Of a stretch of 52,151 nucleotides of DNA, positions 2,992-44,853 are shown one piece after another. The stretch covers positions 1 through 52,151 of the forward strand of contig PWTK01000109.1 in assembly GCA_003563895.1 (NCBI GenBank), given 5' to 3'. The position numbers and the translations under genes were made by a program. Source of the stretch: Syntrophomonadaceae bacterium (lineage in GTDB: Bacteria; Bacillota; Dethiobacteria; DTU022; UBA8154). Each line of letters starts with the position of its first letter. Position 1 is the first letter of the stretch. Below the pieces are notes generated by a model that was not told where the DNA came from, ran no database searches, and saw nothing but the letters and a program-made list of their open reading frames with translations.

Positions 2992-3061
2992 GCTTTAGGC
3001 AGGAGAACATTTTTCTGCGCTGCGATACAATACCTTCTGGGAAAGGGGTTGTCAGAAACTG

Positions 3062-4864
3062 GTGAGTCAATCACTCATCCGAAACTTTTCCATAATTGCC
3101 CATATCGATCACGGCAAATCCACCTTGGCGGACAGGATCCTGGAGCAGACGCACACTATCGAGGAAAGGAACAAAAAAGATCAGTTTCTCGATTCCATGG
3201 AGCTCGAACGGGAACGGGGCATCACCATTAAGCTGCAGGCCGTGCGCCTGTTTTACTCGGCCCGCGATGGGCGGGAATACATGCTGAACCTGATCGACAC
3301 CCCCGGCCACGTGGACTTTTCTTACGAGGTTTCCAGGAGCCTTGCCGCCTGTGAAGGGGCCCTCCTGGTCATCGACGCGGCGCAGGGGATCGAGGCCCAG
3401 ACGGTGGCCAACGTGTACCTGGCGCTGGAACATGACCTGGAAATCATCCCGGTGATCAACAAGGTCGATCTGGCCAACGCCGATCCCGATAAGGTTATAG
3501 AGGACCTGGAAGATTTTCTGGGCATTGACGGTGAAGAGGCCCTTCTCGTCTCAGCCAAGGAAGGCCGGGGGGTTGAAGAATTGCTTGAGGCGGTGGTGAA
3601 ACGCATTCCGCCTCCCGACGACGACCTGGAAGCCCCCCTGAGGGCGTTGATATTCGATTCCCATTACGACCTCTACCGCGGGGTTATCGCCTACCTCCGC
3701 GTGAAAGAGGGGTTGATCAAAAAAGGCCAGAAAATCATCATGATGTCGAGCGGCAAGAGTTTTGAGGTGTCAGAAGTCGGCGTCTTCAGGCCCGCCATGA
3801 CCCCTGATGATTCCCTTAAAGCCGGGCAGGTGGGCTACATGGTGGCCGGCATAAAAAGCATCGGGGATGCCAGGGTAGGCGATACCGTGACGGCTGCCCA
3901 CAACCCGGCAACCGAGCCCCTGCCGGGTTATAAACAGGTGAGGCCGATGGTATTCTGTGGGCTCTACCCCGTTGAAAATGATGAATACGAAGACCTGCGG
4001 GAAGCCCTCGAAAAGCTTCAATTAAATGACTCTTCACTCCAGTTCGAGCCGGAAAATTCGGCCGCACTGGGTTTTGGTTTCCGGTGCGGCTTTCTGGGAC
4101 TACTCCACATGGAAATTGTCCGGGAGCGCCTGGAGAGGGAGTACGGATTGGAACTGATTGCCAGCGCTCCGAACGCCGTTTATAAGGCGGTTACCCGCCG
4201 GGGCGAGGAGATCATGGTAGAGAATCCGTCCCACATGCCGCCGGCCGGCGAGCTGGAGCATATCGCAGAACCTTACGTTCTGGGGACTTTCATGCTGCCC
4301 GAGGATTATATCGGGGCCGTGATGGAGCTCTGCCGGGAGAAAAGGGGCACATACAAGTGCATGGAGTACTTTTCTCCGGACAAGGTCATCCTGGAGTTTT
4401 ACCTTCCCCTGGCCGAGATCATCTTCGATTTTTATGATCAGTTGAAATCGAGGACACGGGGCTACGCTTCTTTTGATTACGATTATTACGGGTATGAACG
4501 CGCTGATTTGGTTAAAGTGGATATTTACGTAAACAATGAGTCTGTGGACGCCCTTTCTTTCATTGCCCACCGCGACAGTGCTTACCAGCAGGGAAAGAAG
4601 GTTGTCCAACGGTTGAAAAATGTGATTGATCGACAGATGTTCGATGTGCCGCTGCAGGCGGTCATCGGGAATCAGCCCGTGGCGCGTGAAACGGTCAAAG
4701 CGCTGCGCAAAAATGTCACCGAAAAACTCTACGGGGGGGACGTGACACGGAAGCGCAAACTCCTGGAAAAGCAGAAGGCTGGCAAAAAGCGCATGAAGCA
4801 GATCGGCAAGGTGGTGATCCCCCAGGAAGCATTTATGAGCGTGCTGAAGCTGGAAAGAAAATAG
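3062..4864 (+). CDS. lepA: Elongation factor 4 (LepA) GTPase
   Basis: Ribosome-associated translational GTPase that acts on stalled or mistranslocated ribosomes and in initiation. All G motifs are present: AHIDHGKS (G1), RGITI (G2), DTPGH (G3), NKVD (G4) and SAKEG (G5). They are followed by EF-G-like domains II, III and V and the LepA-specific C-terminal domain ending in [16 protein letters not shown]. At 600 residues it is full length. The start is GTG 3062, with AAAGGGG rather far upstream (about 13 nt). In many Firmicutes lepA is followed by hemW and then hrcA. Here no hemW is found and an 800-base noncoding gap follows. Confidence 0.97.
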
Positions 4865-7586: not shown

Positions 7587-9458
7587 ATGTCCAAAGTAGT
7601 CGGTGTTGATTTAGGTACAACGAACTCTGCAATTGCTGTTCTGGAAGGAGGAGAGCCGGAGATAATTCCCAACGCCGAAGGGAGCAGGGTGACTCCATCG
7701 GTGGTAGCTTTTTCGAAAGAGGGAGAAAGAATGGTCGGACAGGTCGCAAAGAGGCAGGCCATAACCAACTCCGACCGGACCATTGCTTCTATTAAGCGGG
7801 AAATGGGCACCGATTACAAGCCCAAAATAGATGACAGGGAATATACCCCGCAGGAGATCTCCGCGATGATCCTGCAGAAGTTAAAAGCGGACGCTGAAAG
7901 CTACCTGGGAGAAAAAGTGGAGAAGGCGGTCATTACCGTGCCCGCCTACTTTTCCGACAGCCAGAGGCAGGCCACCAAGGATGCCGGAACCATTGCCGGG
8001 CTGGAGGTGCTGCGCATCATCAATGAGCCCACGGCGGCTTCCTTGGCTTACGGCCTGGACAAAGGCGAAGACCAGACCATCCTGGTATTTGACCTGGGTG
8101 GGGGCACGTTTGATGTTTCCATCCTGGAGCTTGGAGAAGGCGTGTTTGAGGTGAAAGCCACCAGCGGAAACAACAGGCTGGGCGGCGACGACTTTGACGA
8201 AAGAATCATGAAACACCTGGTTTCCGAGTTCAAGAAGGAAACCGGCGTCGACTTGAGCAAGGACCGAATGGCCATGCAGCGCCTGAAGGATGCTGCGGAA
8301 AAAGCGAAAATCGAGCTGTCCAGCGTAACCAGTACCGATGTGAACCTTCCCTTTATTACCGCCACATCAGACGGACCCAAGCACATGGACATCAACCTGA
8401 CCCGCGCCAAGTTTGAAGAGCTCATTTCAGATCTGGTCGACAAAACGGTTGGGCCCATGAAACAGGCCATTTCCGATGCCGGCCTGGAACCGAAGGACAT
8501 TGATCGGGCTATTCTGGTTGGTGGATCCACCCGCATCCCGCTGGTCCAAAAAGTGATCAAAGATGTGACCGCCAAAGACCCGACCAAAGGAGTAAACCCG
8601 GACGAAGTGGTCGCACTGGGGGCCGCCATCCAGGCCGGTGTGCTCTCGGGTGAAGTGAAAGACGTGCTGCTGCTGGACGTGACGCCCCTCTCACTGGGGA
8701 TTGAAACGCTGGGCGGTGTGTTTACCAAGATCATTGAGCGCAACACCACCATCCCCACGTCCAAAAAGCAGATCTTTACCACTGCTGCCGACAATCAGAC
8801 CAGCGTGGAAGTCCACGCATTGCAGGGCGAAAGGCCCATGGCTGCCGATAACAAGTCCCTGGGTCGCTTTATCCTGGACGGCATTCCGCCGGCACCCAGG
8901 GGGGTTCCGCAGATCGAGGTTTCTTTTGATATCGATGCCAACGGGATCGTAAACGTGTCAGCGAAGGACCTGGGAACGGGCAAAGAGCAGAAGGTCACCA
9001 TTACCGCCACCACCACGCTTGGAAAAGATGACATCGAAAAAATGGTGGAAGAAGCGGAAAAGTTCGCGGAAGAAGACCAGAAGAAAAAAGAATTGGCTGA
9101 GACCCGCAACCAGGCCGATTCGCTCATTTACTCCACCGAGAAAACCCTGCGGGACCTGGGCGAAAAGGTGGAACAGGACAAAAAAGAAGAGATTGAAAAA
9201 GCGATCCAGGAAGTGAAAGAGGTCAAGGAAAGCGATGATATCGAAAAAATCAAATCGGCCAGCGAGAAGCTGAGCAGCAAGCTCCACGAGATTTCTTCCA
9301 CTCTCTACGAACAGGTTCAGCAAGAACAGCAAGCCGGCGGCAGCGGAGTACACGGAGAGGGACAGGAAGCAGGAAGTGCCGGTGGCGGTGAAAGCGGAGA
9401 GGAAGACGTTGTCGATGCAGACTACGAAGTAGTAGATGATGAAGAAGAGAGATCATAA
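7587..9458 (+). CDS. dnaK: Molecular chaperone DnaK (Hsp70)
   Basis: ATP-dependent chaperone of the DnaK-DnaJ-GrpE system. The ATPase domain opens with [19 protein letters not shown] and contains the phosphate-2 motif [12 protein letters not shown] and the adenosine motif [11 protein letters not shown]. The substrate-binding domain includes [14 protein letters not shown], followed by a helical lid and an acidic, glycine-rich tail ending in [11 protein letters not shown]. It has 623 residues, and ATG 7587 follows AAAAGGAGG. It lacks the insertion in the ATPase domain typical of Gram-negative DnaK, as expected for Gram-positive forms. Confidence 0.98.
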
Positions 9459-9491
9459 GCATTACCTTCACAAAGGGGCTGAAAGCTCTAT

Positions 9492-10628
9492 ATGGCTAAG
9501 AAGGACTATTACGAAGTCCTGGGGATCAGCCGGAACGCTTCCCAGGAAGAGATAAAAAAAGCATATCGCAAGCTGGCCCGCCAGTATCACCCGGATGTAA
9601 ACGATGGGGGTACCGAAGCAGAAAAGAAGTTCAAAGAGATCAAGGAAGCCTATGACGTGCTGGGTGATGAAAGAAAGCGAGCCCACTATGACCGCTTCGG
9701 CCACCAGGAAGAAGCTCCTCGCGGATTTGGAGGATTCGGTGGGTTTGATGATTTTCGCGGATTCTCCGATGTTGAGGATATCTTCGATGCATTTTTTGGC
9801 GGCGGCTTCTCCACCGGGAGAAGGCGCCGCCAATCAACTTCTCCCCGGCGGGGTGCCGATCTCCGTTATGAGCTGGAGATCACCCTGGAAGATGCCGTCA
9901 ACGGCAAGTTTACCCATGTGAACCTACCCCGCCAGGAAGACTGCGCGGACTGCCATGGCACCGGTGCCAAAGGCGGGAGCTCTGTGGAAACCTGCAATGC
10001 CTGTAACGGTACCGGGCAGCAGCAGGTGGTCAGAAACACGGCCTTTGGACGTTTTGTCAGTGTCCAGCCTTGTGGACCTTGCCGCGGTGAGGGCCGGGTG
10101 GTCAGGGAGCACTGCCCCACCTGCCGGGGCCAAGGACGCGTAGTGAGGGAAAGTAGAATTGAAGTCCACATCCCCGCCGGAGTTGATGACGGTGCCAGGC
10201 TGCGTGTGACCGGCGAGGGTGAGCCCGGAAGAAATGGCGGTCCGCCTGGTGACCTGTATATCTTTATCCGGGTCCTTCCTCATGATATCTTTACACGTCA
10301 GGGCAACCACCTGGTGTGCGAGGTGCCGGTGAGCATACCTCTTGCTGCCCTGGGCGGGGAGATCGAGGTCCCCACCCTGGATGGAAAGGCGCGGCTGCGA
10401 ATCCCGGAAGGAACACAGCCGGGCACAGTACTCAGGATCAAGGGAAAAGGTGCACCGAACCTGCGCGGGTTTGGACGCGGAGACCAGCTGGTGCGCATCA
10501 ATGTTGAAGTGCCTCGCAAGTTAAATGCCCGCCAGAAGAAGCTGCTGCGGGAGCTCGCTTCAGAGTTGGGTGAAGACCTGTCTGCGGAAGGGAAAAACAT
10601 TTTTGACCGCGTGTTTGGCAGCCGCTGA
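9492..10628 (+). CDS. dnaJ: Co-chaperone DnaJ (Hsp40, type I)
   Basis: Delivers unfolded substrates to DnaK and stimulates its ATPase. Domain order: J domain (residues 1-70) with the catalytic HPD in YHPDV; a Gly/Phe-rich linker ([11 protein letters not shown]); a zinc-binding region with four CxxCxGxG-type repeats ([32 protein letters not shown]); then two beta-barrel substrate domains. It has 378 residues. It is the last heat-shock gene, and a 13-bp stem-loop overlaps its stop codon. The prmA gene that commonly follows dnaJ in Firmicutes is missing here. Confidence 0.97.
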
Positions 10629-10654
10629 GAAAAGGGAGAAAGAACCCTTTTCTC
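10627..10654 (+). other. Stem-loop overlapping the dnaJ stop codon
   Basis: GAGAAAAGGG (10627-10636) pairs perfectly with CCCTTTTCTC (10645-10654) over an 8-nt loop, and a few more pairs extend into the last codon. It lacks a T-run, so it may stabilise the mRNA 3' end rather than terminate. A proper terminator follows at 10727. Confidence 0.55.
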
Positions 10655-10726
10655 GGCAGAAATCTCAACCTGTCCTCAGTCCTCACCCGCATCCATCCCA
10701 ACCTGGACAGGCGAAAAAGCACACGG

Positions 10727-10748
10727 CCGGGGCAGTCCCCGGTTTTTT
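10727..10748 (+). terminator. Rho-independent terminator of the dnaK operon
   Basis: CCGGGG (10727-10732), CAGT loop, CCCCGG (10737-10742), then TTTTTT. It is a textbook terminator about 100 bases past dnaJ. Confidence 0.9.
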
Positions 10749-23103: not shown

Positions 23104-23259
23104 TGTCGATAATAATAGCTGTCAATTCTGAAATCTTGTTTTTTCCGCGGTGCCTCCGGGCGTGTTTGCCCACGGTTTTTAAGAAAGCTGTTTGGGTTCT
23201 TTCAGCCGAGCTCGCCGGAGCCGGTGGGCTGGCAGGAAATAATGATTGAGGAGCGACAG

Positions 23260-25731
23260 ATGAAGTTCCGCCGCCTTTTTAAGGCAGGAATGCCCCGAAC
23301 AGCTCCGGCCCATCCCCCTGCGGTGCTTGTGCTGGGTGCTGTTTCCCAGATGGGGCAGGTGCTGTTTTTGCGGGAGCTCCTGATGGTGTTTCAGGGCAAC
23401 GAGCTTTTTATCGGGCTTATCCTGGCCGCCTGGTTGGTCTGGGTCGGTGCCGGCAGCCGTTTGGGGGCCCTGCTGGTTGACCGGTTAGGCCGCCCGCTCT
23501 TTCTCCTCGCACTGAACGCGGCCGGCGTACTCGTAGTGCTGCCGGCGGTCATTCTGTTTATGCGTGGGCTTCGCGGGATCCTCAACGTGCACCCGGGAGC
23601 CTACCTTTCGCTGCTTGATGTGGTTCTTTCCTGCTTGCTGCTGCTGGCACTGCCTTGTCTTTTGCTGGGAGCGCAGTTTGTTCTCCTGTCGCGGGTTTGG
23701 CGCGAAAGCGACCGGGCAGCGGATACCTCCGGCGCCGGGAAAACATATGTGGGTGAAGCGGCGGGAAGTGTGTTGGGCGGCATATTCTTTACTTTTTTTG
23801 TGGTGCATTACTGGAATTCGTTCCAGGCAGCGGTTTTCGCGGGCGGCTTGATGCTCGCCGCAGTGCTATATACCACTTGGAAATATACCGGAAATACCGC
23901 CGGGGCGCCGGTGAAAACACGCCCGCTGCTTCTTCTGCTGTTGGCCCTGGCCGCCACAAGCTTCCCTTTCCTGGGTCAGGTCGATGCTTGGGCGTACAAA
24001 ATGCAGTGGCGGTATTTTGCCCCGCAGCACCTGCTCGTGGAAACGCACCAATCGGAGTACGGGAACATTGCCGTGCTGCAGCGGGAAGAGCAGTACAACT
24101 TCTACCAGAGCGGGCACCTGATGTTCAGCATTGCCGGCCCTGAGGCGCCGGCCCCGGCACTTGAAGAGCAGGAAGCGGTGGACTTTGCCCATTTGTCGAT
24201 GGTCCAGCACGAAAAACCTTCACGCGTTCTGCTGATCGGCGGTGGGCTGCGCGGTATGCTTGGGGAGATGCTGAAGCATCCTGTGGGGCGGGTCGACTAT
24301 CTTGAACTGGACGAGGTGCTTATCGGGGCGGCTCGACCGCACCTCCCTGCGGCGACGCTGAAAGCGCTTGCCGATCCCCGGGTGCACCTGAAGCATATTG
24401 ACGGCCGGCTTTTTGTCAAAGCGGCAGAGAAACAGTACGATATGATCATAGTCGATGCCCCCGATCCCGCCACTGCAGCGCTGAACCGCTATTACACCGA
24501 GGAATTTTTCCGCGAAGCCGCAGCCCTCCTGTGTCCCGGGGGAGTATTTGTTATCGGGGCGGACTCCACACCGGACCTCAGGGGGGCTGCGGTGGCCAAC
24601 CGCAACGCCACCATCTACCATACCCTGTCTGCCGTTTTCTCCCGCGTGCTTCCGGCGGGCGAGCGGTTTATGTTTTTTTTCGCCACCAATGCACCCGGGC
24701 AAATCTCGGTCGATCCGCTCATTCTCGAGGAACGTTACGGAGAGCGCGATATAGAAGCCGAAGGCTTTTCACCGCATCATTATCATACGCTGCTGGAAGA
24801 ATCCCAGCTGCAGCGGGTGAACTGGGTGGTCCGCAATCACGGGCGCAGCCCCGATGCGCACCTGGCGGGGCCGGGGACAGGCCCGCTTGTGCCAGGCACT
24901 GTGGCTGAGCAGGAGGAGGCGGAAAGTGAGCTGCCGCCAGTAGAAAGGCGCTACTTCATTAATTCCGATTTCAAGCCCATTGGATATTTTTATACCCTTA
25001 TGTACATGGATGAGCTGGCGCGCGCCGGGTACAGGGAGTTTTTTCACCGGCTGCTGCACATAGAATTTTGGTGGCTGCCGCTGCTGTTTTGTTTCCCCCT
25101 GGCGGCCGTGCCGGCGCTCCAGGCTGCGGCTCGCCGGGGCAAAGAAAGGCTTGATATCCGGTTCGGAGTTCTCTTCACCGTGTTCACGACCGGTTTTTCC
25201 ACGATGGCGCTGCAGATCGCCCTGTTGTTTTCTTTTCAGAGCATTTACGGTTTTGTCTACGAAATGGTGGGGTTGATCGTGGCCATATTCATGTGCGGGT
25301 TGGCCCTTGGTGCTTATATGACAAATCGTTATGTGCGCCACAAGGCAAATATTAACACCCTGGCTGCGGTCCAGCTGGTGATTGCAGCGCTGGCTGCTGG
25401 GATTGCCCTTGCGCTTCCGCAGGTAGCGGGAGTACAGTTTCCCGCCGCCATTTTTGCGCTGTTTTCTATGTTGACCTTTACCGCAGGGCTGATCAACGGC
25501 GTGGATTTTCCCCTCTCGGCCGCCTGCTACATGGCCCTAAGAGGCAATCCTGAAAAAACGACCGGAGCCGTTTACGGCACAGAGCTTTTCGGGGCGTGCG
25601 TCGGGGCAACCCTGGCCAGCGCTGTAGTGGTCCCTATCCTGGGTATTGCCGCCTGCTGCCTGATTGCCGGTGCCGCCAACGGAACCGCTTTTGTTGTACT
25701 CTTGTTGTCGAGGAGGTCTTACCATGACTGA
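23260..25731 (+). CDS. Polytopic membrane protein with spermidine-synthase-like domain
   Basis: An 823-residue membrane fusion. About seven hydrophobic helices (residues 20-240) precede an aminopropyltransferase-like Rossmann domain (about 245-510), then six or so helices (about 600-820). In the middle domain, HQSEYGNIAVLQ, VLLIGGGLRGMLGEMLKH, VDYLELDEV and YDMIIVDAPDP mirror spermidine synthase. The usual GGGDGG is GGGLRG, so the conserved Asp is lost and polyamine synthesis is doubtful. Counting helices with positive loops inside places the enzyme-like domain outside the membrane. The start is ATG 23260 with GAGGAG at 6 nt. The gene overlaps the next one (Tat radical SAM) by 8 bases, so the two are translationally coupled. 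The substrate is unknown. Confidence 0.75.
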   Translation: MKFRRLFKAGMPRTAPAHPPAVLVLGAVSQMGQVLFLRELLMVFQGNELFIGLILAAWLVWVGAGSRLGALLVDRLGRPLFLLALNAAGVLVVLPAVILFMRGLRGILNVHPGAYLSLLDVVLSCLLLLALPCLLLGAQFVLLSRVWRESDRAADTSGAGKTYVGEAAGSVLGGIFFTFFVVHYWNSFQAAVFAGGLMLAAVLYTTWKYTGNTAGAPVKTRPLLLLLLALAATSFPFLGQVDAWAYKMQWRYFAPQHLLVETHQSEYGNIAVLQREEQYNFYQSGHLMFSIAGPEAPAPALEEQEAVDFAHLSMVQHEKPSRVLLIGGGLRGMLGEMLKHPVGRVDYLELDEVLIGAARPHLPAATLKALADPRVHLKHIDGRLFVKAAEKQYDMIIVDAPDPATAALNRYYTEEFFREAAALLCPGGVFVIGADSTPDLRGAAVANRNATIYHTLSAVFSRVLPAGERFMFFFATNAPGQISVDPLILEERYGERDIEAEGFSPHHYHTLLEESQLQRVNWVVRNHGRSPDAHLAGPGTGPLVPGTVAEQEEAESELPPVERRYFINSDFKPIGYFYTLMYMDELARAGYREFFHRLLHIEFWWLPLLFCFPLAAVPALQAAARRGKERLDIRFGVLFTVFTTGFSTMALQIALLFSFQSIYGFVYEMVGLIVAIFMCGLALGAYMTNRYVRHKANINTLAAVQLVIAALAAGIALALPQVAGVQFPAAIFALFSMLTFTAGLINGVDFPLSAACYMALRGNPEKTTGAVYGTELFGACVGATLASAVVVPILGIAACCLIAGAANGTAFVVLLLSRRSYHD

Positions 25732-26938
25732 AAAGAAAAAAGCCCCCGGCAGCCTGAGCCGCCGGGAATTTTTAAAAGCCGGGGCAGCCGGCGCCTGCGC
25801 CTTCTGCCTGGCCGGCGCTTTCGGCTGCGCACCACCGGAACAGCCGGATGAACCGGCCCCAACGGAACCGGTTGATCCAAACAATGAAACAGTACCTCCG
25901 CCCGTAACGGCGGAGAAGGGATTTGTCAGCCCTGTGCTCGCGGGGTGGTTCAGCGAGCTTGAAGAGAGCAGGGTACGCTGCGAGCTCTGCCCCCGGCAGT
26001 GTCAGATGGCAGAGGGGGAAAGGGGCCCCTGCCGGGTGCGCAAAAACCGAGAAGGGAAGCTTTACACCCTGGCTTATGGCAACCCTGCCCTGGTGCAGGA
26101 AGATCCCGTAGAACGAAAGCCCTTCTTTCACGTGCTTCCTGGAAGCCGCGCATTATCCATTTCCACGGCGGGCTGCAACCTGGACTGCAAATTCTGCGAA
26201 GTCTGGGATATGGCCCTGGTTGCACCGGAGGAGGTATACGCGTATGATATGCCCCCGGAAAAGGTGGTTGCGCATGCACGGGACTCCGGTGTGCGGGCGA
26301 TTAGCTATGCTTTCGGCGAGCCGGTCATTTTTCACGAGTATATGACGGAGGTGGCCGCGCTGGCCAAAGAAGCAGGGCTTTTGAACCTGCTCCACACCGC
26401 GGGCTATATCCGTCCCGAACCGCTGAGGGAATTAAGCGGCCACCTGGATGCGGTCAATGTTGACCTGAAAAGCTTTGACGAGGAGTTTTACCGGGAGGTT
26501 GTCGGGGGAGAGTTGGGACCGGTACTGGAAACGCTCCAGCGGCTGGGAGAGGCGGGTGTCCACATTGAGGTGACCAACATCGTTATTCCTACCCTGAACG
26601 ATGACATGGAAACCATAGGAGAAATGTGCCGCTGGATCGCCGGAGAACTGGGGGCCGGCATACCCGTTCACTTCGCTCGCTTTTATCCGCTCTACAAGCT
26701 TTCCGGCCTTCCGCGGACCCCCGTTTCCACCCTCGATCAAGCCCGGGACACCGCACTGCAGGCCGGGCTCAGATACGCCTATGTGGCCCGTGTACCCGGG
26801 CATGAGGGAGAAAATACATTTTGCCCGGGATGCAAGGAACTTGTCATTAACAGAATGGGATTCGTTATAGAAGAAGTACACCTGAAAGACAGCGCCTGCC
26901 GGTACTGCGGCACGGTCATCCCCGGCAGGTGGGATTGA
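25724..26938 (+). CDS. Tat-exported AmmeMemoRadiSam-type radical SAM protein
   Basis: Radical SAM protein of the AmmeMemoRadiSam/PflA-like group; the reaction is unknown. Residues 11-35 form a Tat-type signal (SRREFLK, hydrophobic AGACAFCLAGAFG, then C35 as a possible lipobox Cys), followed by a Pro/Glu-rich linker (36-62). An N-terminal cysteine cluster (C86, C89, C93, C103) precedes the radical SAM motif AGCNLDCKFCEVW (C151, C155, C158). The C-terminus carries a zinc-ribbon-like pair of CxxC (366/369 and 392/395). MEMO1 and AMMECR1 partners are not in the window. ATG 25724 follows AGGAGG and overlaps the preceding membrane-protein gene. The Tat motif strongly suggests the folded [4Fe-4S] protein acts outside the membrane. 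Confidence 0.82.
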   Translation: MTEKKKAPGSLSRREFLKAGAAGACAFCLAGAFGCAPPEQPDEPAPTEPVDPNNETVPPPVTAEKGFVSPVLAGWFSELEESRVRCELCPRQCQMAEGERGPCRVRKNREGKLYTLAYGNPALVQEDPVERKPFFHVLPGSRALSISTAGCNLDCKFCEVWDMALVAPEEVYAYDMPPEKVVAHARDSGVRAISYAFGEPVIFHEYMTEVAALAKEAGLLNLLHTAGYIRPEPLRELSGHLDAVNVDLKSFDEEFYREVVGGELGPVLETLQRLGEAGVHIEVTNIVIPTLNDDMETIGEMCRWIAGELGAGIPVHFARFYPLYKLSGLPRTPVSTLDQARDTALQAGLRYAYVARVPGHEGENTFCPGCKELVINRMGFVIEEVHLKDSACRYCGTVIPGRWD

Positions 26939-26939
26939 T

Positions 26940-28052
26940 TTACTGCAGCCGCTGACGGTGCAGTTCAAGCTGGGTCAGGGACCTGGAATCGAGATTTGTC
27001 AAGCCGGCCTCCTTGGCCCACTCCATGGCTTCCACGAACTCCTCGGCACTGATGGCCCGGGCGATGCGGTCGTATTCAAAAGCCCTGTGCTCGACCCGGT
27101 ACTGGGCCATAATGTTGACGTAGGTGTCCGTCGACAGGTTTTGGGCCACCCATTCCACGAATTCTTTCGTGCCGGCCACCCGGTTGGGCATCACCAGGTG
27201 GCGCACCATCAACCCGCGCCGGGCAATGCCCCTCTCATCGGTGTCGAGGTCCCCCACCTGACGGTGCATTTCTGTGATCGCCTCCCGGGCTAGCTTCGGG
27301 TAATCATAGGCTTCTGCATTGTTGTATCGCTCCGCTTCCTTGCCGTCCATGAATTTCATATCCGGCAGGTAAATGTCGATGACGCCATCCAGCAGCTTTA
27401 ATGCCTCGAGGCGTTCGTAACCGCTGGTGTTGTAGCAAAGGGGCAGGTGCAGCCCCTTCTCCAGGGCGATGCGCGCAGCCCCCAGGATGTTCGGCATGAC
27501 GTGGGTTGGTGTGACCAGGTTGATGTTGTGACAGCCCCGCCGCTGAAGGTCGATCATCATCTCCGCCAGCCTTTCATCGCTAATCTCGCTCCCTCTCCCC
27601 TCATGCGCAATGGGCCAGTTCTGGCAGAAGACACAGCGGAGATTGCAGTTGGAGAAGAAAATGGTTCCCGAACCGCTGTTCCCCACAAGCGGCAGTTCTT
27701 CGCCGAAATGCGGCTGATGGGTGTACACCACTGCCTGTTCCGGGGCGCGGCAAAAGCCCTCATCTCCCGCGCGCCGGTTTGCCCCGCATTGGCGCGGGCA
27801 GAGGGTGCAGTTTTCCATCATCTCATAGGCCAGCTCGATCCGCTCGGCAAGCCTGCCTTCTTGTTCCAGCCTGGCATAACCGGCAAGCCAGTCATTGTCG
27901 ATTTCAAGGGGTTTCTCCCGCGGTTCCTCCCGCAGATCTTCCGGCTCTGCGCAGCCCTTTAAAAGCCCGGCCCCGCCGGCGAGGCAGAGCAGCCCGGCTC
28001 CGCCGGCCAGGCACCACATGTTTTTGATAAAAACCCTGCGAGTCATGGCCAT
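26940..28052 (-). CDS. Tat-type radical SAM protein, COG1313/PflX-like
   Basis: A second, different radical SAM protein of 370 residues. Its start, MTRRVFIK, is a twin-arginine signal. The hydrophobic part contains the tandem nonamer CLAGGAGLL twice, ending in LKGC (C34), a possible though atypical lipobox. An N-terminal cysteine set NCTLCPRQC plus C101 precedes the cluster motif SNCNLRCVFCQNWPI (C136, C140, C143), then the PflA-like barrel with TPTHVMPN, PLCYNTSGYE, DIYLPDMKFMD and RHLVMPN. It converges with the other radical SAM gene, with one base between the stop codons. The start at 28052 has GAGGGTG upstream; 28100 is less likely. Function unknown; it resembles COG1313 activase-like proteins. 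Confidence 0.8.
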   Translation of the reverse strand: MAMTRRVFIKNMWCLAGGAGLLCLAGGAGLLKGCAEPEDLREEPREKPLEIDNDWLAGYARLEQEGRLAERIELAYEMMENCTLCPRQCGANRRAGDEGFCRAPEQAVVYTHQPHFGEELPLVGNSGSGTIFFSNCNLRCVFCQNWPIAHEGRGSEISDERLAEMMIDLQRRGCHNINLVTPTHVMPNILGAARIALEKGLHLPLCYNTSGYERLEALKLLDGVIDIYLPDMKFMDGKEAERYNNAEAYDYPKLAREAITEMHRQVGDLDTDERGIARRGLMVRHLVMPNRVAGTKEFVEWVAQNLSTDTYVNIMAQYRVEHRAFEYDRIARAISAEEFVEAMEWAKEAGLTNLDSRSLTQLELHRQRLQ

Positions 28053-28157
28053 GTTAAACACCCTCGCTATAGAGTATAAAAATACATTAAGAAGGACCAT
28101 GTGGTAATTATTTTACCTGTAGAAAAAGAAAAAAACAAGATGGAAACGGGGAGAAAC

Positions 28158-28388
28158 ATGATTGCAGAGCGGGTTCTCAAAAAACAGTCCTGCAGGGCTT
28201 TTGATCCCGGAAAAAGGGGGCACACATTTTTCCCGAAATGCCGGGAACTTGTCATTAACACCAGAACGGGATTTGTTATTGAAGAGATACACCTGGAAGG
28301 CGGTGTTTGCCGGCATTGCGGCGGTGATGGCAAGAGCTGTTTGTCACCTGTTCGGGGTCTTTTTCCAGGACTGACGCATGACTTTTAA
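28158..28388 (+). pseudogene. Relic of the C-terminal zinc ribbon of a radical SAM gene
   Basis: A short frame whose middle (28204-28323) matches the last 45 codons of the gene at 25724-26938 at both DNA and protein level: CRELVINTRTGFVIEEIHLEGGVCRHCG against CKELVINRMGFVIEEVHLKDSACRYCG (each shown as a whole motif, gaps of one residue). The first Cys of the ribbon is changed (FCPGC to FFPKC), and no radical SAM domain is present. ATG 28158 with GGGGAG upstream might still be translated (76 residues). It is best read as a decayed duplicate or remnant of a former second copy. Confidence 0.65.
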
Positions 28389-43684: not shown

Positions 43685-43833
43685 TGAACCGTCCCCACGG
43701 CACTATTTCCCTCAAACCTTTCTCTTTGAACAGGCACACGAGAACAACCTCTTTTTTCAAATACTCATGGAGGAAATGGCTGTTCAATGCAGCCCGGCGT
43801 GAATGCCGTTCAATTTCCGGGGGAGTTTTTCGG

Positions 43834-44715
43834 TCAGCCTTCATTTTTCAGGGTATTGTACAGCTCAAAGCCCTTTTCCGGTGTTTCGTTTTGATGCACC
43901 ACGGCCTTGACCGCCTGGATCATGGCCACCGGCGCTTCGGATTGAAAGATGTTCCGCCCCATGTCCACACCGGCTGCCCCTTCCTGAACCGCCCGATAGG
44001 CCATGGCCAGGGCATCAAATTCCGGAATTTTCTTGCCGCCGGCCATCACAATGGGTACGGGGCAGGAGGATGCAACCGTTTCAAACCCCTCCTCAATATA
44101 GTAAGACTTGATGTAATGGGCCCCGAGTTCGGCGCAAATCCGGGTCGCCAGCCTGAAGTAGCGCGCGTCCCGTGCCATGTCTTTACCCACCGCGGTTACT
44201 GCAAGGGTGGGAATGCCGTAGCGTGTTCCGATATCAACCATCCGGGTCATGTTGATAATCGATTCCTTTTCGTATTCGCCGCCGATAAAGACCTGCACCG
44301 CCATGGCGCAGGCATTGAGCCGGATGGAATCCTCAATATCCACCGCTATTTCCTCGTTGGAAAGCTCCTTGAGAATGCTGGTGCCGCCGGAAACCCTGAG
44401 CACGATGGATTTGGAAGTGGAAGGGGGAATGACCGTTCTGAGAATTCCCCGCGTCAGCATCAATGTATCCGCATAAGGAACAATTGGAAGGATATTGATG
44501 TCGACGCGTTCCAGTCCCAGGGTAGGTCCCTGAAAATAGCCGTGATCGATGGCCAGCATCACGGTACGACCGGTTTCGGGATTGAAGATGCGCGCCAGCC
44601 TGTTTTTCATGCCCCAGTCCAGCGAATTGGATCCCTTGAGGAAAAAGCCTTCCGTCTCCTGGGGAGTGTCGGTGTGAAACTGCTTGGCCTCTTTGATTTT
44701 ATCATCATCAGGCAT
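43834..44715 (-). CDS. lsrF: LsrF-like 3-hydroxy-2,4-pentadione-phosphate thiolase/aldolase
   Basis: Class I aldolase-type thiolase. The E. coli LsrF cleaves the phosphorylated AI-2 product with CoA to acetyl-CoA and DHAP. The likeness covers the whole 293 residues: [66 protein letters not shown] and [17 protein letters not shown]. The Schiff-base lysine is K203 in [13 protein letters not shown], the same number as in E. coli. No lsrK, lsrG, lsrR or Lsr transporter genes accompany it; instead it leads an operon with a zinc dehydrogenase and a VOC protein. The substrate may therefore be a related phospho-sugar diketone. AAAGGAG precedes ATG 44715. Confidence 0.85.
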
Positions 44716-44853
44716 TATAACGCTCCTTTCTGCGCTCTTTGGATGAAGCGGCCACCTGGATTCAGGTTTGTAAAGCTGAGAAGGCTTACGGGGAAATTAA
44801 AAAAAGGAAACAAAAGGTAATATATGGAATGGCCCTTGCTTTGGCTTGAAAAA

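Follow-up and report, generated by a model that had tools for sequence, protein, structure and literature searches.

Several described systems resemble parts of the locus studied here. Membrane helices fused to a SpeE-like domain are covered by the model NF037959 (MFS_SpdSyn), a model of 480 positions that describes the fusion but assigns it no reaction, and the Rossmann domain itself is that of SpeE (TIGR00417; PDB 1uir and 1inl). MFS proteins such as SV2A, SLC45A4 and AmpG provide the closest helix arrangement. The radical-SAM enzymes next to the membrane protein are related to the AmmeMemoRadiSam proteins (TIGR04335/04336/04337) and to PflX-like proteins (COG1313). A radical-SAM enzyme consumes SAM and yields 5'-deoxyadenosine and methionine, and this chemistry is generally taken as cytoplasmic, since SAM, reductant and iron-sulfur assembly are found there. 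For Memo-Ammecr1 systems, PMC7159879 points to Burroughs et al. 2019 (10.1074/jbc.RA119.007595). That paper lay outside our search of the open-access literature, in which we found no paper pairing a fused protein of this type with radical-SAM enzymes and no match for 'fused MFS' with spermidine synthase, for spermidine synthase with Tat-signal radical SAM, or for PflX with radical SAM.

The DNA analyzed, hereafter the window, is a stretch of 52,151 nucleotides from a Syntrophomonadaceae bacterium (contig PWTK01000109.1). It carries a gene for such a fused membrane protein (gene A) next to two radical-SAM genes (B and C), listed in Table 1. We computed the fold, the topology, the residue changes and the recurring gene neighbourhood of A. 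Compared with NF037959, A and its closest relatives (type 1) have 14 helices, a central domain and the motif GGGLRG. As far as our search goes, what is new here is a form of the AmmeMemoRadiSam radical-SAM enzymes that is apparently exported and has a membrane protein as its dedicated partner.

Table 1. Position and basis of the features assigned at the A-B-C locus (window coordinates; helices, topology and signals are predictions)
Feature	Coordinates	Strand	Basis
Gene A, 823-aa membrane protein, 7 TM + outside SpeE-like domain + 7 TM, type 1	23260..25731	+	Pfam/NCBIfam profiles, AlphaFold2, structure alignment, loop charges
N-terminal seven TM helices (A1 6-241)	23311..24018	+	AlphaFold2 helices, charge bias
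MFS motif-A-like loop GSRLGALLVDRLGRP, between TM2 and TM3	23452..23496	+	Sequence, alignment
Outside spermidine-synthase-like Rossmann domain (about A1 242-560)	24019..24975	+	PF01564, AlphaFold2, Foldseek, VIA-align
LEEQEAV, aligned to DEFVYHE in the SpeE of the same genome (EAV opposite YHE)	24160..24180	+	Alignment to the genome's SpeE
GGGLRG replacing GGGDGG (A1 315-320)	24238..24255	+	Alignment, 15/15 type-1 members
VDAPDP, both Asp of the SpeE D-x-x-D/E-P motif retained	24451..24468	+	Alignment
C-terminal seven TM helices (A1 593-810)	25072..25725	+	AlphaFold2
Gene B, Tat-signal (SRREFLK), probable lipoprotein, AmmeMemoSam_rS radical-SAM enzyme	25724..26938	+	NCBIfam profile, motifs, tblastn
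Gene C, Tat-signal (TRRVFIK), lipobox LKGC, PflX-like radical-SAM enzyme	26940..28052	-	Profiles, motifs, tblastn
Short frame similar to the zinc ribbon at the C-terminal end of B, probably left over from a duplication of B	28101..28388	+	L015 3656-3943

Family and predicted topology of the gene A protein

The open reading frame of gene A (23224-25731, + strand) contains 835 open codons. As in the original prediction, the ATG at 23260, with GAGGAG just upstream, is the likely start and gives a product of 823 aa. Residues are numbered here from base 23296 (A1), so that a residue of the original prediction is A1 + 12. The protein matches PF01564 (E 2.4e-25) and passes the cut-off of NF037959 (54.2 bits for 40 bits). 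Its top NCBIfam match by score is PRK03612 (polyamine aminopropyltransferase), but for the aminopropyltransferase equivalogs it stays under the curated cut-offs (153 vs 472, and 94.1 vs 249.55 for TIGR00417). A canonical SpeE is encoded elsewhere in the same genome (G000:C24, L041; TIGR00417, 337.7 bits). Given these scores, this second gene and the altered residues described below, we rejected A as the ordinary spermidine synthase of the cell. PF07690 (MFS_1) gave no match to the window protein at E 0.1, and 31.0 bits with the relative L080, for a cut-off of 33.4. Type 1, the class of the fused MFS/spermidine-synthase-like family to which gene A belongs, is rare: 4 of 398 genomes of its own phylum match at E 1e-60, one of them (G052) being type 2 by sequence, while 11 of 40 near relatives match A at E 1e-40 and 8 of these are type-1-like by score.

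The AlphaFold2 model, built from a six-sequence alignment (mean pLDDT 74.3, pTM 0.74), places seven long helices ahead of the domain (A1 6-31, 38-64, 67-90, 106-139, 145-172, 175-197 and 208-241). This number agrees with the about seven hydrophobic helices counted by eye in the original prediction and is odd, where an even one would have spoken against that prediction. Seven further helices (A1 593-615 to 784-810), absent from that prediction, follow the domain. Foldseek matches of the model are spermidine synthases (best 1uir_B, E 9.1e-11). With VIA-align, SV2A ranks first (Z 26.9, 354 residues, 3.9 A), SpeE structures come next (1uir, Z 25.8, 273 residues, 2.8 A), and SLC45A4 (Z 18.4, 363 residues, 4.4 A) and AmpG (Z 17.1, 355 residues, 5.2 A) are lower. 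The Rossmann domain expected from the earlier reading is thus recovered by both PF01564 and 1uir. In this model of pLDDT 74, the helices appear to have an MFS-like fold, and 7+7 helices on such a core would mean that two extra central helices lie between the six-helix halves. The protein shares with MFS carriers the helix arrangement and a motif-A-like loop; unlike them, it has the extra helices and an inserted outer enzyme-like domain, and it does not match PF07690.

The side of the membrane on which this domain lies was judged from several features. If the two halves have the orientation usual in MFS carriers, the loop joining the extra central helices of A is outside. The TM2-TM3 loop is MFS motif A-like, such a loop being cytoplasmic in MFS carriers. 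Lysines and arginines are more numerous in the inside-assigned than in the outside-assigned loops in 49 of 49 sequences (L038 was excluded, its gene being cut), with means of 20.8 and 4.8, and 20 and 3 in the window protein. Because seven helices precede the domain, the charges follow the positive-inside rule in every sequence and the TM2-3 loop is motif-A-like, the domain is predicted to be outside, and we consider this topology well supported. The side given by the original prediction from the positive loops therefore stands, and it extends to the relatives; of the range it proposed (residues 245-510) the end has to be moved, as the outer domain reaches about A1 560.

The altered aminopropyltransferase site

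The residues of the site were interpreted with the roles that they have in SpeE structures. The replacement of GGGDGG by GGGLRG, already noted in the original prediction, is invariant in type 1, being found in 8/8 sequences of the alignment and in 7/7 additional members. The lost Asp had been considered part of the polyamine site; in spermidine synthases it instead contacts the aminopropyl amine of decarboxylated SAM (dcSAM), not the polyamine itself. Intact synthase residues would have spoken against the original prediction, and GGGDGG and YHE are not intact; one part, the Asp pair of VDAPDP, is. The first Asp of D-x-x-D/E-P (Asp387) is found in 8/8 type-1 but 3/42 type-2 sequences, the second is Asp in seven of the eight type-1 sequences and Glu in the other, and D-x-P-[DE]-P is retained in all 15 type-1 members. 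A new motif, LEEQ, is nearly invariant in type 1, each of its four positions being conserved in 7 or 8 of the 8 sequences. Across the whole family, the adenosine-side residues Asp369 (50/50 members) and Glu337 (47/50) are retained, as is Asn397 (50/50). Compared with SpeE, A therefore keeps the Rossmann fold and the adenosine-side residues, has lost the dcSAM-reading Asp and YHE, and has its domain on the predicted outer side. We read this as a probable SAM-fold site retained for a ligand and changed at the decarboxylated end. The retained Asp pair of type 1 points to possible catalysis.

Radical-SAM and Memo-AMMECR1 neighbours of gene A

The start of gene B, preceded by a GGAGG site, overlaps the end of A, and its product scores 343.7 bits against TIGR04337 (cut-off 220). 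Gene C is convergent with B; its frame is open to 28100, the ATG at 28052 being preferred, and its product resembles PflX (COG1313). Both proteins have a twin-arginine signal with a hydrophobic stretch, judged by motif and hydropathy only, together with CX3CX2C, and C has a four-Cys motif. C shares these cysteine motifs with PflX-like proteins and differs from them by its Tat signal and, in several type-1 loci, by a lipobox-like Cys; lipobox-like sites are also present in several type-1 B proteins. With these signals, B and C would be exported and active outside.

By tblastn, A, B and C occur in the same order and orientation in 8/8 type-1 loci (the window, L003-L007, L035 and L036). The hosts come from several phyla, those named being Dethiobacter, Brocadiaceae, Omnitrophota, Desulfovibrionales and Syntrophomonadaceae MAGs. 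B lies next to A in six of seven further type-1 loci taken with 1.5 kb flanks, and C is seen in five of them; L235 has no B within its flank. TatC is present in 7/8 module genomes searched and was not found in the genome of the window itself, which is 79.6% complete. The Omnitrophota locus has a third Tat-signal radical-SAM gene (L005 7893-9068, + strand), and a tatC gene (G400:C43:9589-10200) lies about 0.5 kb beyond it. Farther along the window, a 364-aa frame (43726-44820, + strand) without a Pfam match at E 1e-5 is overlapped by an antisense frame and may be non-genic.

For the broader family, we surveyed genomes around G401, a Desulfovibrionales MAG. A search with a ten-row alignment found family members in 106 of 297 of them, and our results suggest that polyamine aminopropyltransferase, the database name, is wrong for a family of this frequency in one sample. 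The survey took 40 of the 106 genomes with A, spread down the ranking and with one A locus each, and 20 of the 191 without A, namely those listed; all 120 TIGR04337 matches listed for these 60 genomes were counted and genes were placed by coordinate. A Tat signal was called from a twin-arginine motif and a hydropathy threshold, not by a trained predictor; the threshold, 1.3 in a first pass, was changed after a first look to 0.9 with a stricter motif, and two spurious calls (G438:C53 and G437:C280) were removed by hand. A Tat signal was found in 26/28 TIGR04337 genes lying within 7.5 kb of A, in 19/70 lying elsewhere in genomes with A (20 before one removal) and in 1/22 in genomes without A (2 before the other). 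Per genome, 35/40 with A have a Tat-signal member against 1/20 without A (Fisher p 3.7e-10); the true significance is weaker than this value, because the genomes, which form a non-random sample, are related to one another. Near-A Tat-signal genes were found in 23 of the 40 genomes. All 46 Tat-signal proteins retain CX3CX2C, the four-Cys motif and the C-terminal zinc ribbon, and only 6/46 of the genes have a lipobox-like site.

A Tat-signal TIGR04337 gene was not found in five of the 40 genomes with A (G487, G660, G426, G688 and G597); G660 has a KR variant, and in G426 the gene next to A is of the C type and bears a Tat signal. Two of the 28 near-A radical-SAM genes (G450 and G516) have no Tat signal. 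We consider the genetic link of A to Tat-signal radical-SAM genes well supported. Unlike these near-A copies, most other TIGR04337 copies in the same genomes have neither export signals nor linkage to A; the type-1 loci further differ from known AmmeMemoRadiSam by gene C. Many genomes have several signal-less TIGR04337 paralogs (e.g. G487:C14 and G433:C1:1442443), and tandem pairs of same-family Tat-signal radical-SAM genes were observed at L080 (7294-9548), L182, L188 and L196. At L088, a type-2 A is paired with a Tat-signal PflX-like gene (3053-4126, - strand) and has no TIGR04337 neighbour, so that the C-type partner also exists outside type 1. At L089, which has no radical-SAM gene nearby, a 675-aa protein with a Tat-like signal is encoded near A (8703-10730, - strand).

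Clustering the open reading frames of 49 loci, we found that only the A, radical-SAM and Memo-AMMECR1 families recur in at least 13; generic ABC ATP-binding proteins come next, in 8/49. No substrate could be proposed from recurring neighbours, as none beyond these three families reaches at least 13 loci. AMMECR1 and/or Memo genes are present in 15/40 type-2 loci, 11 of which hold Memo, and all 11 Memo-bearing proteins have a hydrophobic N-terminal stretch. Two proteins encoded beside type-2 A genes, L086 and L098, are Memo-AMMECR1 fusions, and at L102, L106 and L117 the radical-SAM, Memo-AMMECR1 and A genes stand in series on one strand. The nine module genomes hold four Memo genes, of which three appear to start at a conserved motif, without a signal, and the fourth, a fusion (L119, G399), has a signal-like start. 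Since Memo was not found in six of these nine genomes (that of the window and five of the eight others), type 1 seems to work without it.

A possible role of A in SAM supply outside the cytoplasm

The original prediction had left a sensor, a SAM-analogue binder, a transporter and an enzyme using SAM on another substrate unranked. Taken with the MFS-like fold, the association of A with Tat-signal radical-SAM enzymes, which could not be seen from gene A by itself, points to a membrane component of the transporter type, with SAM or a product of SAM as its ligand. The explanation we prefer, to which we grant a little less than an even chance, is that A serves an exported radical-SAM system as its membrane component. 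The 14 helices would make up a carrier of the MFS type in which two extra helices separate the six-helix halves, and the loop joining this extra pair, placed outside, would hold the domain derived from spermidine synthase. This domain would bind SAM, having retained the adenosine side of the pocket and lost the residue reading the decarboxylated aminopropyl end. The carrier would move SAM, exchanging it across the membrane for spent products (5'-deoxyadenosine, methionine or methylthioadenosine), and the outer domain would give ligand to, or receive it from, the Tat-exported enzymes B and C. Since a radical-SAM enzyme working outside needs SAM and makes 5'-deoxyadenosine and methionine, carrying these compounds would be the simplest role for A. 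We know of no MFS exporter of SAM, nor did we identify a protein or compound that would donate electrons to a radical-SAM enzyme working outside. The ligand of the pocket could also be MTA, SAH or another adenosyl compound, or the pocket could serve sensing only.

Two other readings keep the domain outside. A could be a SAM-dependent transferase. In type 1, Leu-Arg of GGGLRG would then take the carboxylate of intact SAM and the Asp pair would pass a 3-amino-3-carboxypropyl group, or a related one, to an acceptor outside, and the helices would anchor the enzyme or move its substrate. The constant D-x-P-[DE]-P, with the nearly invariant LEEQ, makes the type-1 site look remodelled rather than decayed, and the universal Asn397 also fits. 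However, the first Asp is gone from 39/42 type-2 relatives, which share the Tat radical-SAM setting, so catalysis would not be family-wide, and this reading, too, requires a way for SAM to get outside; we regard this transferase as rather unlikely. Alternatively, the cargo of A could be what the exported enzymes act on or make, whether peptide, lipid head group, polyamine or sugar, its outer domain only sensing or docking. The MFS-like fold agrees with this, as does the structural match to SLC45A4, reportedly a polyamine transporter. But the 49 loci offer no additional recurring gene that would point to a substrate, and the conserved adenosine pocket would be left unexplained; we hold such a carrier to be unlikely.

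The remaining readings dispense with export or with the outer domain. The Tat-like signals of B and C could be uncleaved anchors that stay inside, with nothing exported and A merely an operon-mate. The motif-based Tat calls, the missing TatC in the incomplete genome of the window and the scarcity of lipobox-like sites in the survey would suit it. Against it stand the lipobox-like Cys of several type-1 B and C proteins, the signal-like N-termini of neighbouring Memo-AMMECR1 proteins and the near confinement of Tat signals to genomes with A, and we judge it improbable. Least credible, and very improbable to us, is a cytoplasmic domain in an ordinary membrane-anchored polyamine aminopropyltransferase: the Pfam and NCBIfam names and the best score, with PRK03612, speak for it, but the sub-cut-off scores, the changed synthase residues, the canonical SpeE and the topology all disfavour it.

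Coming back to the preferred SAM-carrier reading, its widest form is that bacteria of several phyla have a complete radical-SAM pathway outside, with SAM supplied by an MFS carrier whose SpeE-derived domain was retuned from dcSAM to SAM, and in some lineages with secreted Memo-AMMECR1; in this generality we think the proposal somewhat unlikely. The module suggests that in some bacteria radical chemistry dependent on SAM takes place outside the cytoplasm, and if the SAM-supply reading is true, A would be the first dedicated SAM exporter for such chemistry known to us. The combination of radical-SAM enzymes bearing export signals and a membrane protein with a SAM fold outside opens SAM chemistry outside the cytoplasm, and the export of SAM, to direct tests. 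For AmmeMemoRadiSam, whose NCBIfam models (hypoth_equivalog) name no reaction, it offers a point of entry by genetics.
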